Assembly: GCA_021801265.1 (NCBI GenBank)
Contig: JAJYYE010000010.1
Coordinates: 372,001 to 436,000 of the forward strand
DNA length: 64,000 bases
Source: Pseudomonadota bacterium
GTDB lineage: Bacteria > Pseudomonadota > Gammaproteobacteria > Halothiobacillales > Halothiobacillaceae
Direction: 5' to 3'
This document shows positions 9,515-19,065 of the stretch, piece by piece (within the stretch, counting starts at the first letter, position 1; every line of letters begins with the position of its first letter). The notes below the pieces were generated by a model. The model saw only the letters and a program-made list of their open reading frames with translations, had not been told where the DNA came from and made no database searches. The position numbers and the translations under genes are program-made.

Positions 9515-9601
9515 GCCTGGGTGGCGGAATTGGTAGACGCAGTGGATTCAAAATCCACCGATAGCGATATCGTGTCGGTTCGAGTCCGACCCTAGGCACC
9601 A
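9515..9601 (+). tRNA. tRNA-Leu, anticodon CAA
   Basis: The acceptor stem GCCTGGG pairs with CCTAGGC, the D-loop contains GGTAGACGC, and the anticodon stem-loop carries CAA, reading UUG. A long variable arm of the class II type and the T-loop GGTTCGAGTCC follow, and the CCA end is encoded at 9599-9601. It stands at the left border of a 9-kb accessory region, a common position for an integration target. Confidence 0.97.
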
Positions 9602-13678: not shown

Positions 13679-13736
13679 TTGATATTTAGACCATTATGCG
13701 TATACTTTGCCTTAAGTGGTTTTAATTTAGACCATT
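13679..13736 (+). promoter_or_regulatory. hipBA promoter with paired operator-like repeats
   Basis: TTGATA (13679-13684) and TATACT (13701-13706), 16 bases apart, make a good sigma-70 promoter. An exact 12-bp direct repeat, ATTTAGACCATT, occurs at 13684-13695, inside the spacer, and again at 13725-13736, just past the expected transcription start. The copies are 41 bp apart, about four helical turns. This layout suits cooperative autorepression by HipB or a HipA-HipB complex. Confidence 0.65.
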
Positions 13737-13747
13737 TTGAGGTAGCA

Positions 13748-14095
13748 ATGTCTGTAAAAATCCCGACACCAGTACCCTCTGAAATGTCAGTCTACTTCAT
13801 GTCCGATGAAGAGATTTTGGCAAACGTAGGTGATCGCGCCCGGAGTCATCGTCTGGCCATGAACACCACTCAGGAAGAGCTGGCCGCTCACGCCGGGGTA
13901 TCACGTTCATGCGTGCGCTCATTTGAGCGAGGGGACTCCATCAGCACCGGAAACATGGCGAAGCTACTCCGCAGCCTGCGCCTGCTTCAACAGTTTTACG
14001 ACTCAATACCGCCTGTTGAGGTGGACATGTACAAACGCATTGCCGAACAGGTCTCGGCCCGACTTAGGGCGACAAGATCAAGGAAGAAAAAATGA
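13748..14095 (+). CDS. hipB: HipB-like XRE-family antitoxin
   Basis: DNA-binding antitoxin of 115 residues that should bind and inhibit the HipA kinase and repress the operon. An XRE helix-turn-helix spans roughly residues 30-85 (VGDRARSHRLAMNTTQEELA, then AAHAGVSRSCVRSFERGD). The tail is very basic (RATRSRKKK). The ATG at 13748 has a GAGG ribosome site six bases upstream; a longer frame from 13679 would start inside the promoter. It overlaps hipA by four bases (ATGA), the normal coupled antitoxin-first order. Confidence 0.88.
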   Translation: MSVKIPTPVPSEMSVYFMSDEEILANVGDRARSHRLAMNTTQEELAAHAGVSRSCVRSFERGDSISTGNMAKLLRSLRLLQQFYDSIPPVEVDMYKRIAEQVSARLRATRSRKKK

Positions 14096-15435
14096 GTGAC
14101 GCCATTATCGTGCGCCTATGGGGCGAAAACATCGGGGCCGTATTCATGGGTAGCAGGGGGTACGCCTTTGCCTACTCCGATCAGTTCACCAATAGGGGAG
14201 TAGAGGTGTCTCCGCTTCTGATGCCGCTGTCCAATCTGTCGTACAGCTTCCCAAGGCTGAATGATGAGACCTACTACGGTCTGCCGGGAATGATCGCGGA
14301 TGCCCTGCCGGACAAGTTCGGTAACGCGGTCATCAACGCCTATATGCAGACAAAGGGGATTGCCCCCAACAAGATCACCGCCCTTCAACGTCTAGCCTAC
14401 ATTGGTCGGCGCGGCATGGGCGCGCTTGAGTTTGAGCCCGTGGATGACGGCACGCACGAGAACAGCCTCTACCGCGAGCCACTGGTCATGCGTGACATGA
14501 TCAAATCGGCCCGGCGGGTGCTCTTGGGTGAAATGCCCGACATCCGTAGCCAGCTCATCGAGATTGGTGCATCGGCGGGCGGTGCGCGCGCCAAGGCGGT
14601 CATCGGGTACAGCCCGGATACCGGCAACATCGTCTCCGGCCAGTTTGATGTCCCGGACGGGTATCAACACTACCTGATCAAGTTCGATGGCGTGGAAGGC
14701 ACTAGGCGTGGTATCTACGGACGCCGTGAGTCAGCATATCTCTCGATGGCCGCCGCCGCCAGCATCAACGTACCCGACCACTTCCTGCTCGAAGACGAGG
14801 ATCGAGCGCACCTGATGATTCGCCGTTTTGATCGAACCGAGCGTGGCGAGAAAATTCACATGCAATCCCTCTGCGGCATTGCTCACCTCGACTTCAACCA
14901 GCGGATGACGACTGATTACGGCACGTTTCTTCGAGTGATCAGGCAGCTTGGATTGAGCGCCGTCGAAACAGAAGAGGGGTTCCGCCGCATGGTGTTTAAT
15001 GTGCTCGGGGTCAATCAGGACGACCACACCAAGAACCAGTCGTTTCTTATGGATCGGCAGGGTCAATGGTCGCTCGCCCCGGCTTACGACCTTGCATTCG
15101 CGTGGAATCCGGACCCGAGCAGTTGGACTCATCAACACCAAATGCTGATCAACGGCAAGGCGCTCGGGATCACCCGTAATGATATGCACGAGGTGGCCAA
15201 GGCCGGGAGCATCAAGAAGGTCCGAGTGGACGAGATCATTGACGAGGTGGCTGATGCGATCAGGCTGTGGCCTGAGTTTGCAGCCGACGCGAAAGTCGGT
15301 GATGAGGAATTCCATCTGATTGAAGGCAAACAGGTCGAGGCAATGGCCTCCGTGTCTCCACGGTCAGGACAGACCGCCATGACTGACGACCAACAGGAGC
15401 CGGTCAGCTCGGGAAATCCATCACCGGCATCCTGA
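14092..15435 (+). CDS. hipA: HipA-family serine/threonine kinase toxin
   Basis: Type II toxin of 447 residues. Relatives phosphorylate aminoacyl-tRNA synthetases such as GltX and cause growth arrest and persistence. The N-terminal domain (about 1-110) precedes the kinase region. Visible elements are the glycine-rich autophosphorylation-type loop SAGGARAKA (161-169), the ATP-binding lysine in YLIKFD (about 194-199), the catalytic loop VNQDDHTKN (307-315) and the metal-binding APAYDL (329-334). All key residues look intact, so the module is probably functional. A C-terminal extension of about 30 Ser/Thr/Gln-rich residues is unusual. The gene lies between two dead transposon remnants, as expected for an acquired module. 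Confidence 0.88.
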   Translation: MSDAIIVRLWGENIGAVFMGSRGYAFAYSDQFTNRGVEVSPLLMPLSNLSYSFPRLNDETYYGLPGMIADALPDKFGNAVINAYMQTKGIAPNKITALQRLAYIGRRGMGALEFEPVDDGTHENSLYREPLVMRDMIKSARRVLLGEMPDIRSQLIEIGASAGGARAKAVIGYSPDTGNIVSGQFDVPDGYQHYLIKFDGVEGTRRGIYGRRESAYLSMAAAASINVPDHFLLEDEDRAHLMIRRFDRTERGEKIHMQSLCGIAHLDFNQRMTTDYGTFLRVIRQLGLSAVETEEGFRRMVFNVLGVNQDDHTKNQSFLMDRQGQWSLAPAYDLAFAWNPDPSSWTHQHQMLINGKALGITRNDMHEVAKAGSIKKVRVDEIIDEVADAIRLWPEFAADAKVGDEEFHLIEGKQVEAMASVSPRSGQTAMTDDQQEPVSSGNPSPAS

Positions 15436-17053: not shown

Positions 17054-17518
17054 TCAACGCAAACCCGCATCAATGGCTGCAGTGACCATATGCTCCAACT
17101 TGCTGAGTACCGGTTCGGCAGCGCTGCCGGCAGCGGTGACCGACGGACGCACGAAGAGTACCGTCGCCATGCCGTCCTTCTCGATGATCGTCAGGTGCAA
17201 CGGGCACGCCGCAAGCAACTCTGGATCCTTGTTGCTGACTTCGTTGGCGATGCCGCCATTGCAGAATACGATGCTCTGGATACCCTGGAGATGGTTGCGG
17301 TTGTAATTCGCGCCCCACTCGCCGGCATGCTGGGCAAGCTTTTTACTGATGGGGATCTCGGATACCACCATGAACTTGTGCGACTTGAGTGCGCTTTCCA
17401 CGCGAGAAACCGCTTCCCCAAGCGGCATTTGGGCCGATTTCTCATAAACCGATGTGGTTGCCGCATGGGCCGAAATAGTCACAAGGCAACCCAGTGCCAG
17501 TACCAGAGTTCTTTTCAT
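17054..17518 (-). CDS. periplasmic DUF302-domain protein
   Basis: Protein of 154 residues with a clear Sec signal peptide (MKRTLVLALGCLVTISAHA, cleavage after AHA at about residue 19), so the mature protein is periplasmic. The mature part shows the DUF302 pattern: an amphipathic stretch EAVSRVESALKSHKFMVVSEI, an IVFCNGG segment, LLAACPLHLTIIEKDG, and TVLFVRPSV. DUF302 proteins are small alpha/beta folds of uncertain role, often found in bacteria exposed to sulfur or metals. It has no operon partners here. The start ATG 17518 is well placed for the signal peptide. Confidence 0.75.
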   Translation of the reverse strand: MKRTLVLALGCLVTISAHAATTSVYEKSAQMPLGEAVSRVESALKSHKFMVVSEIPISKKLAQHAGEWGANYNRNHLQGIQSIVFCNGGIANEVSNKDPELLAACPLHLTIIEKDGMATVLFVRPSVTAAGSAAEPVLSKLEHMVTAAIDAGLR

Positions 17519-17899
17519 TGATCATTTACCTTTGTCGATTGCTTTAGGCGGGCACCATGCACGAGTGCGGGGTGCGGTGAGGACACATCTCGGGAAGCCG
17601 TCAGGCTTGGGGAAAACCATTCGACGAAGCGAAATCCTGCAAAGGGCAATCCCCTCCGAAAAGCGGGTGGTGTCAACTAAGGTGACGGAGTTTCCCGCTC
17701 GCTTATTCCATAAAGATGCTAATAATTTTCAACACCTGCTATATCTATTGCCAACAAAATGATAACCAGGGAGTTGTAAGCTTCCCCCAATGAAAGACGG
17801 CTCTTGGTAAAGCCTTCGGGTCTCGGCAAAGGACGGGGGACTCCCCCGGGTTCACGGATACTTTTATCAAGCTTGTGAGGATGAAAGTTAAAGCGAAAG
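17519..17899. other. 380-bp non-coding stretch upstream of the DUF302 gene and the IS debris
   Basis: It holds the presumed promoter region of the DUF302 gene. A small hairpin (GGGGG at 17835-17839 with CCCCC at 17843-17847) lies near the edge of the IS3 fragment. No gene is recognised. Confidence 0.4.
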
Positions 17900-17986
17900 A
17901 TGGGGTCAACATTGGCACGCAGGAAATTCAGTCCGGGGTTCGAATCCGAGGCGGTGAGGCTGGCCACACAATCAGGTGTGGCTGTG
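17900..17986 (+). pseudogene. IS3-family OrfA N-terminal fragment
   Basis: 29 codons starting ATG 17900, containing RRKFSPGFESEAVRLATQSG. This matches the start of the helix-turn-helix OrfA protein of IS3 elements (pattern RRKFSPEFK-x-EAVRL). The homology ends at SGVAV, where the sequence runs into a fragment of a different element. Confidence 0.75.
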
Positions 17987-17996
17987 AGAGTGGGGG

Positions 17997-18098
17997 AATC
18001 CCAGGCCCCGCAAAACACTCGAATGGAAGACGCCCGCTGAAGCGTTTGATGAACTACTATTCTCGACTTAACAAGCGGGTGTTGCGACGACTCATTGA
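17997..18098 (+). pseudogene. IS30-family transposase C-terminal fragment
   Basis: In another frame, RPRKTLEWKTPAEAFDELL is the conserved C-terminal element of IS30 transposases. It continues FST, a TAA in place of a sense codon, and then QAGVATTH and a stop; VATT endings are typical of this family. The fragment joins the IS3 OrfA relic directly at about 17990, showing insertion followed by deletion. Confidence 0.78.
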
Positions 18099-18100
18099 AC

Positions 18101-18312
18101 CTAACCGGGTTGGATATATCGCAATTCAATGCCACGCTGCTCGACCCGAGCGGTAGACGCATATGAGCGCATTTCGCTGCCATTGTCCATGCGGGGATGG
18201 ATTCCGTCAGGCCATAGGCCTCAACCTGTCGATTCAACACCCGGATCAATCGGGCGAACGGAATCGACATGCCGACATCAATAGCCAAACACGCTCGATT
18301 GGCTTCACCGAT
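18101..18312 (-). pseudogene. IS3-family OrfB (integrase domain) fragment
   Basis: On the minus strand, NRACLAIDVGMSIPFARLI, RVLNRQVEAYGL and, after a frameshift near 18200, RMDNGSEMRSYAST and RGIELRYIQPG follow the rve-domain pattern of IS3 OrfB, including the Asp of DNG. It ends with a stop right after QPG. It abuts the IS30 fragment in opposite orientation. An apparently open frame of 189 codons across this region (17719-18288) is not a real gene. Confidence 0.8.
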
Positions 18313-18463
18313 CCCGTTTGAGAAACGTGCCGATGCCCGCGTATGGATCGGTTCCGATCACGAATTGCGCAATCTGGCCACTCGCCTCTATGCTGATCGA
18401 ATCAGTGGCGATTTCGCCCAGGCTCCCGGCAGGGCTCAAAATGACTGCCGTATACCGTGATGG
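18305..18463 (-). other. short unassigned open frame beside the IS3 fragment
   Basis: An uninterrupted stretch of 52 codons includes SPAGSLGEIATDSISIEASG and ends GIGTFLKRDR at the stop 18305-18307. It reads like protein but has no start codon of its own with a ribosome site, and no family I recognise. It is probably the end of a gene truncated by the element. Confidence 0.3.
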
Positions 18464-18576
18464 TCACGGCTCGGAGTGGGTTAAAGTGTTCAAAACCACC
18501 GCATAACCATTTGATTCCATTAGAATGAAAATACCGGTTTTCGCCATTTTTATCAGACTAAAAAAGAGGCAACATA

Positions 18577-19065
18577 ATGATTAACAAGAATAAAATATCA
18601 GTTATTTTTATTTGCATGGGCAATATCTGCCGCTCGCCCACGGCCGAAGCGGTGTTCCGCCAGCAGCTTGGACGGGCGGGGTTGCAGGATTGGGTCACGG
18701 TGGATTCGGCGGGCACGCATGCCTATCACATCGGCAATCCGCCAGACCCGCGCTCAACGGCCACCGCTGCCGAACGCGGTTATCGCATGGACGTTTTGCG
18801 CGCGCGGCAAGTGACACCCGCAGATATTGAGCAGTTTGATTTTGTGCTGGCAATGGACGAGGCCAATTTGGCGATTCTGCAGCAGTTAGCCCCAGCGCAT
18901 CTACGCGATAAACCGCAGCTATTCATGCAATTTGCACCGGATTATGGGGTAACCGAAGTGCCTGACCCGTACTTTGGCGGCGCGCTGGGCTTCGAGCAAG
19001 TATTGGATATGGTGGAAGAGGCCTGCACGGGGTTAATCACCGCGATTGAACCCAAAGTGCGCTAA
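18577..19065 (+). CDS. low-molecular-weight protein-tyrosine phosphatase
   Basis: Cytoplasmic phosphatase of 162 residues. The P-loop C-x5-R reads CMGNICRSPTAE near residue 13, and the general-acid loop is VPDPYFGG near residue 126, both intact. Family members dephosphorylate tyrosine kinases of exopolysaccharide systems or small substrates; no kinase or polysaccharide genes lie beside it here. ATG 18577 has an AGAGG ribosome site. It is the first clearly conserved gene to the right of the accessory region, and is convergent with the permease gene 38 bp away. Confidence 0.92.
   Translation: MINKNKISVIFICMGNICRSPTAEAVFRQQLGRAGLQDWVTVDSAGTHAYHIGNPPDPRSTATAAERGYRMDVLRARQVTPADIEQFDFVLAMDEANLAILQQLAPAHLRDKPQLFMQFAPDYGVTEVPDPYFGGALGFEQVLDMVEEACTGLITAIEPKVR

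Follow-up and report, generated by a model that had tools for sequence, protein, structure and literature searches.

Remnants of IS3, IS30 and integrase genes beside a phosphatase gene in a member of the Halothiobacillaceae, and a possible preference of one IS30 clade for IS3 OrfB genes

How did pieces of several mobile elements come to lie end to end between 17.8 and 18.6 kb of the window (the 64,000-nt stretch of DNA analysed here, from a genome of 2.66 Mb in 12 contigs), and do the two IS3 pieces among them share a parent? The initial annotation had read the region as nested IS3 and IS30 debris, and all three of the pieces that it named are backed by homology, but it overlooked a fourth, the C-terminus of an integrase. 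From left to right, the scraps are the start of an IS3 OrfA (forward strand), the tail of an IS30 transposase (forward), the middle of an IS3 OrfB (reverse) and the integrase C-terminus (forward), right after which a phosphatase gene starts (Table 1).

Table 1. Features in and around the debris (positions are those of the window)
Feature	Position	Strand	Basis or remark
189-codon open frame across debris	17719..18288	-	Judged non-coding
IS3 element no. 1, probable left end (terminal repeat and leader)	17836..17899	+	Inferred; left limit approximate
IS3 OrfA start, about 29 codons, HSDxGSQY-type subgroup	17900..17985	+	Protein homology, local alignments
8-nt junction between OrfA piece and IS30 piece	17986..17993		Position only; putative deletion scar
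IS30-family element 3' end: transposase C-terminus into right terminal repeat	17994..18105	+	Homology, repeat pattern
IS3 element no. 2, middle of OrfB, DNGxE type	18106..18318	-	Homology; frameshift between 18193 and 18199
Lambda-type tyrosine recombinase C-terminus (phage or integrative-element integrase)	18353..18506	+	DNA and protein matches; frame change between 18424 and 18438
Low-molecular-weight phosphatase gene	18577..19065	+	PF01451, 8.5e-43; present in 10/10 genomes of the genus

Further to the left, a DDE_3 transposase ORF (PF13358; 12531-13280) lies between a tRNA-Leu gene (9515-9601) and the debris, and an HTH_3 gene and, next to it, a gene for a HipA-like kinase (13679-15435) probably form a toxin–antitoxin pair of the HipBA type; the stretch from 9.6 to 18.5 kb may be a variable island. 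The start and upstream DNA of a DUF302 gene (17054-17518, reverse strand) recur in a different setting in the sister genome G005 (locus L004).

In a protein-level search of 7.3 Gb of plasmids, the best matches of the OrfA piece reached 68% over 25 aa (best E 7e-3), and the two annotated proteins among the matches listed are IS3 transposases. Local alignment to the OrfAs of four IS3 loci (L024, L025, L178 and L182) gave scores of 64-84, against about 22 ± 3.5 for shuffles, and the earlier identification of an IS3 OrfA start on the forward strand is thus upheld. The Pfam scores of both IS3 pieces fell below the cut-offs (13.4 bits against 24.1 for HTH_Tnp_1 with OrfA, and 12 bits for rve with OrfB), as would be expected of short, decayed pieces. 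The IS3 sequence probably begins about 60 bp to the left of OrfA: G005 contains a second, likewise decayed OrfA start (L003), to which window 17842-17952 is 74% identical in DNA, and the left ends of L024 and L025 are similar by eye to the stretch that directly precedes the OrfA piece. About 200 bp to the left of that second copy, at 1084-1302 of L003 (G005:C57), there is a Group I catalytic intron (Rfam RF00028, 59 bits), which as read by eye lies inside a tRNA gene, a place where ARAGORN made no call. At the DNA level, a search with the OrfA stretch (E 1e-5) recovered only the stretch itself from 369 genomes of the class, and no plasmid match was obtained at E 0.01 for the OrfA, OrfB or integrase stretches.

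The IS30 piece comprises only the last ~35 codons of a transposase gene, an intact DDE transposase being absent. It matched a plasmid relative at the protein level (75% over 32 aa, E 5e-6), and a Paraburkholderia copy, itself sited at the Gln codon described below, shares 81.8% DNA identity with it over 99 nt; two full relatives have HTH_38 together with weak rve or rve_3 matches. The description of the piece as a forward-strand IS30 transposase C-terminus with one nonsense codon proved accurate, a single in-frame TAA being found at 18069-18071. The right terminal repeat (18080-18105), into which the transposase gene runs in this IS30 clade, departs from the clade pattern at a single position within its first 23 bp. 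This repeat and the DNA identity place the window copy in the clade surveyed below, which the end sequences suggest to be IS1655-like. OrfB had been placed three bases beyond the IS30 piece; with the terminal repeat included, the IS30 sequence continues further and OrfB begins on the very next base. Since the repeat is present and OrfB follows it immediately, the join lies at the IS30 end and not at a random break.

The OrfB piece, which likewise corresponds to what had first been described (reverse orientation, with a frameshift), matched an annotated IS3 transposase (52% over 69 aa, E 2e-12) when its two frames were joined by hand at the frameshift, and by eye the likeness extends perhaps to about 18335. 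It is of the DNGxE type and meets the IS30 end at a YIQP motif about 30 codons past DNG; the first Asp and the Glu, which we take to be the other two catalytic residues, are outside it. Could the OrfA and OrfB pieces, which flank the IS30 piece, be halves of one IS3 copy divided by IS30 insertion and inversion, as was first proposed? Among eight fetched carriers of related OrfAs, three (L025, L178 and L182) had a readable downstream OrfB motif, in every case HSDxGSQY, and five had none. The OrfAs of DNGxE-type elements (L023, L027, L183 and, in the same genome as the window, L007) scored only 17-27 against the OrfA piece, with shuffle means of about 21-25, and an IS3 of the HSD type in the window's own genome (L006) scored 39, inside the shuffle maximum of 41. 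On these alignments the two pieces match IS3 elements of different subgroups, and because of this mismatch (HSDxGSQY against DNGxE) a single parent is disfavoured and was rejected; the orientations of the pieces would moreover require an additional inversion, so that a common origin is very improbable in spite of the flanking arrangement. The initial annotation had also suggested a search for full parent copies elsewhere in the genome, and none was found there for IS3 (the nearest IS3 copies are not the parents) or for IS30, the closest IS30 relative in the genome being partial (56% identity over 256 aa).

The fourth scrap, of about 50 codons, is a fragment with neither a whole catalytic domain nor an arm-binding domain; full relatives carry PF00589 and PF09003. 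Window 18359-18499 has 68% DNA identity (E 1.2e-6) to the end of a gene for a 401-aa integrase in G005 (L005), and two blocks of the window, each 58% at the protein level, matched an integrase of the sister genome G009 (E 6e-5 when only the window was searched). These blocks, HELR and MTAVYRD (the Tyr-bearing C-terminal part), align to the G005 and G009 integrases in different frames, and the frame change is presumably why the window piece was not recovered at E 0.001 when the genome was searched with the G009 protein. The same protein had matches in four of 27 genomes of the family, namely G009 itself, G005 (51%), G018 (30%) and a remnant in G002.

About 85 bp separate the end of the intact integrase gene from the phosphatase start in G009, and at the same spot in G002 the last integrase codons survive among stops. 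The gene order common to the sister genomes begins at the phosphatase and continues rightward, and to the left of it the content varies between genomes (by eye). The simplest reading is that the spot upstream of the phosphatase may serve as an integration site. No attachment repeat was detected in the 40 kb to the left of the integrase end in G009, and in three whole genomes every second match to the boundary sequence was weak. A tRNA gene as the target was considered and rejected, the two tRNA-Leu genes of the window being at 9515 and 58866. In G009 (L028/L029), a stretch of about 40 kb on the left of the intact integrase resembles a section of a large integrative element: it contains genes for a ParA-like ATPase and a single-strand binding protein, and cassette-like small genes, one of them dihydrofolate-reductase-like (names assigned by eye).

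An open frame of 189 codons runs in reverse across the debris, and automated annotation had been predicted to report it as a false gene. The frame does exist, and it scores as non-coding, with a codon score of -0.06, where four genes nearby have scores of +0.11 to +0.31. Long as it is, it has no Pfam match, and the 961-bp debris stretch has no second DNA match in its own genome and partial matches only in one of 56 other related genomes; we therefore regard a real gene, or a domesticated regulator built of IS pieces, as scarcely credible. As far as can be judged from sequence, it is likely that nothing in the debris is expressed.

Is the abutment of an IS30 end and an IS3 OrfB peculiar to this locus? 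A scan of one genome per species with a fixed 23-bp terminal-repeat pattern yielded at least 120 stretches, in which we counted each distinct end that had 100 nt or more of flank; an end may be left or right, and one element may give two. Among the matches listed there were 130 such ends, spread over 119 stretches and no more than 121 elements. A junction was scored where an OrfB match (tblastn, E<1e-4) started within 9 nt of the IS30 end, and this was so for 56 of the 130 (34 with OrfB in reverse and 22 forward; 52 stretches and at most 52 elements), again among the matches listed. In 53 of these 56 the exact junction was the Gln codon of HSDxGxQ-Y. The remaining ends comprised 12 with OrfB recognized by motif only (some of them doubtful, and left out of the 56), three with OrfB elsewhere in the flank and 59 with none, these classes shifting by one between runs since E-values depend on the set searched. 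OrfB was present in the first 300 nt of flank at 64 of the 130 ends, compared with 0/106 at 1.5 kb, 1/93 at 2.5 kb and 1/75 at 3.5 kb (2/274 together) when the same test was applied further out, among the matches listed.

The result was similar in subsets of the matches listed (84 ends, 35 junctions and 33 exact positions from 80 stretches; 46, 21 and 20 from the other 40), and two pairs of ends belonging to single elements had OrfB at one end only. Where the element side of a listed end spanned 90 nt or more (104 ends), IS30 transposase homology was found at 82; OrfB lay at the junction in 39 of these 82 and in 6 of the 22 others, none of which were removed. By their record titles, the listed stretches come from Proteobacteria, Actinobacteria, Chloroflexi and Nitrospira, and the interrupted OrfBs are from 25% to 84% identical to the query OrfBs; this spread implies many separate events. 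Plasmid relatives gave a still higher proportion, with OrfB right at the IS30 end in 10 of 11 (8 reverse, 2 forward), at the Gln of H[ST]DxGxQ, but this figure is biased upward, as four of them (L041, L042, L043 and L046) had been chosen for an IS3 annotation under the match, and the genome scan is fairer. Nine of the plasmid copies were among the 20 listed of 62 records, and L026 and L046 came from the search with the IS30 tail protein (the L026 record occurs in both plasmid searches). Five viral contigs, one of them with OrfB at the junction, were kept outside the counts.

Complete copies, sought only in L048-L132, L026 and L038-L047, numbered 21, of which 14 had a 3-bp duplication (7 at HSDxGxQ and 7 elsewhere) and 7 had none. 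In the seven at HSDxGxQ (L039, L040, L042, L084, L090, L099 and L105) the Gln codon is itself the target duplication, present on both sides; the reconstructed site of L105 reads HADRGSQ-F. In the motif HSDxGxQ-Y, HSD presumably contains the second catalytic Asp of the DDE triad. Among 40 flanks that were not IS3, CAG was the commonest first triplet (11/40), the profile being otherwise unclear. Taking these observations together, we incline, with some reserve, to the view that this IS30 clade homes into other transposons, its transposase recognizing the HSDxGxQ-Y-coding DNA around a catalytic Asp of IS3 transposases, that it duplicates the Gln codon and so cripples IS3 copies in several phyla, and that the window holds a decayed, off-site example.

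The window junction differs from the preferred site, lying at YIQP of a DNGxE-type OrfB, and a DNGxE motif was found within 300 nt in none of the 56 listed junction flanks. The first three flanking bases at the window junction, CGG, are the same as the duplication at a non-IS3 copy (L128), and an IS30 insertion off the preferred site is plausible. Such an insertion cannot be proved, the left repeat of the window copy having been lost together with any target duplication, and the YIQP position, with no DNGxE among the surveyed junctions, means that the join could instead be a rearrangement mediated by the IS30 end.

How, then, might the debris have accumulated? We consider it quite probable that the locus is a wrecked landing zone for mobile DNA, with a history of five steps. 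An integrative element with a lambda-type integrase would first have entered just upstream of the phosphatase, leaving in the end only the integrase C-terminus; this entry is suggested by two sister genomes, where an intact and a decayed integrase occupy the spot. Next, a DNGxE-type IS3 would have been set in reverse against the integrase gene (the adjacency is plain, the insertion conjectural). An IS30 element of the IS1655-like clade would have come after it, with its right terminal repeat abutting the reversed OrfB, which is the trace expected of an insertion into OrfB; relatives of this IS30 repeatedly insert into IS3 OrfB genes. The left part of the IS30 element would then have been lost in a putative deletion that fused the remaining tail to the beginning of another IS3, of a different subgroup, and point mutations and frameshifts would have followed. 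Points against this history are, besides the YIQP junction, the short OrfA match (25 aa) with its Pfam score below the cut-off and the negative outcome of the search for repeats at the integrase end.

There is another possible sequence of events, about which we are rather more doubtful. The IS30 element could have been inserted first in the HSDxGSQY site of the IS3 that owned the OrfA piece, on the same strand; an internal deletion would then have fused OrfA to the IS30 tail, and a deletion or inversion mediated by the IS30 end would have brought the right end of the IS30 against the unrelated DNGxE OrfB. This would account for the OrfA belonging to the very subgroup whose OrfB this IS30 clade enters, and for an IS30 end as exact as in rearrangements made by transposase; joined IS30 ends are reported, in the available text of PMC9333248, to yield insertions, deletions and inversions. 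It does, however, need one step more, and no remainder of an HSDxGSQY OrfB was noticed nearby, although there was no dedicated search for one.

The debris, as decayed nested IS pieces with an integrase remnant, is ordinary in itself, and it matters little beyond a warning to annotators about a false gene and the likely integration site beside the phosphatase. It is of value mainly because it led to an IS30 clade that may strikingly prefer the catalytic codons of IS3 transposases. If this is true, a transposon that targets such codons would be a natural brake on IS3, with a target that is set by protein conservation and is present wherever such IS3 copies occur, a logic comparable to that of homing elements in conserved codons. 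From the preference follows a predicted target sequence that is accessible to experiment. In the open-access listings searched (which leave out the main paper on IS1655 target specificity and most subscription journals), OrfB codons of IS3 were nowhere described as a target of IS30 elements, and novelty is unproved; no preference for IS3 OrfB is mentioned in the available parts of PMC4803752 and PMC2864759.

Among known systems, the integrase scrap resembles lambda-type integrases (PF00589 with PF09003) in its C-terminal block (TAVYRD...GSEWVKVFK) and in sharing the chromosomal spot of the G009 gene, but it differs in being reduced to a short piece in two frames with no recognizable element left. 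The IS3 pieces resemble the family (OrfA and OrfB, DDE transposase) in the OrfA N-terminus and in an OrfB core with the DNG Asp, but they are partial and of two subgroups, and the OrfB piece is frameshifted. For the IS30 piece, the closest comparison is with IS1655, ISLxc3 and ISLxx5. As described in the accessible part of PMC2516522, ISLxc3 (IS30 family), whose repeats were set by comparison with IS1655, has imperfect terminal repeats of 26 bp with a non-complementary 3' 'GCC', and an NTG duplication at two copies. Many of the ends surveyed here likewise finish in GCC, and the duplicated Gln codon is YTG when read on the opposite strand, in which sense the NTG of ISLxc3 fits a Gln codon; the window copy differs in being a 3' fragment that ends in AAC. 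A conserved target site is not reported in that part of PMC2516522, whereas 56 of the 130 listed ends in our survey lie at OrfB, 53 of them at one and the same codon. IS hotspots are reported to attract new ISs in general (PMC9208149, in the part available). In the available texts, REP palindromes are targets of other ISs (PMC1525189), and IS30 has targets of two kinds, namely hot-spot sequences and the terminal repeats of IS30 itself (PMC9333248). The clade surveyed here is like these systems in preferring a recurring sequence, but the targets that those texts describe are palindromes, hot spots and terminal repeats, and not the catalytic codons of another family's transposase.
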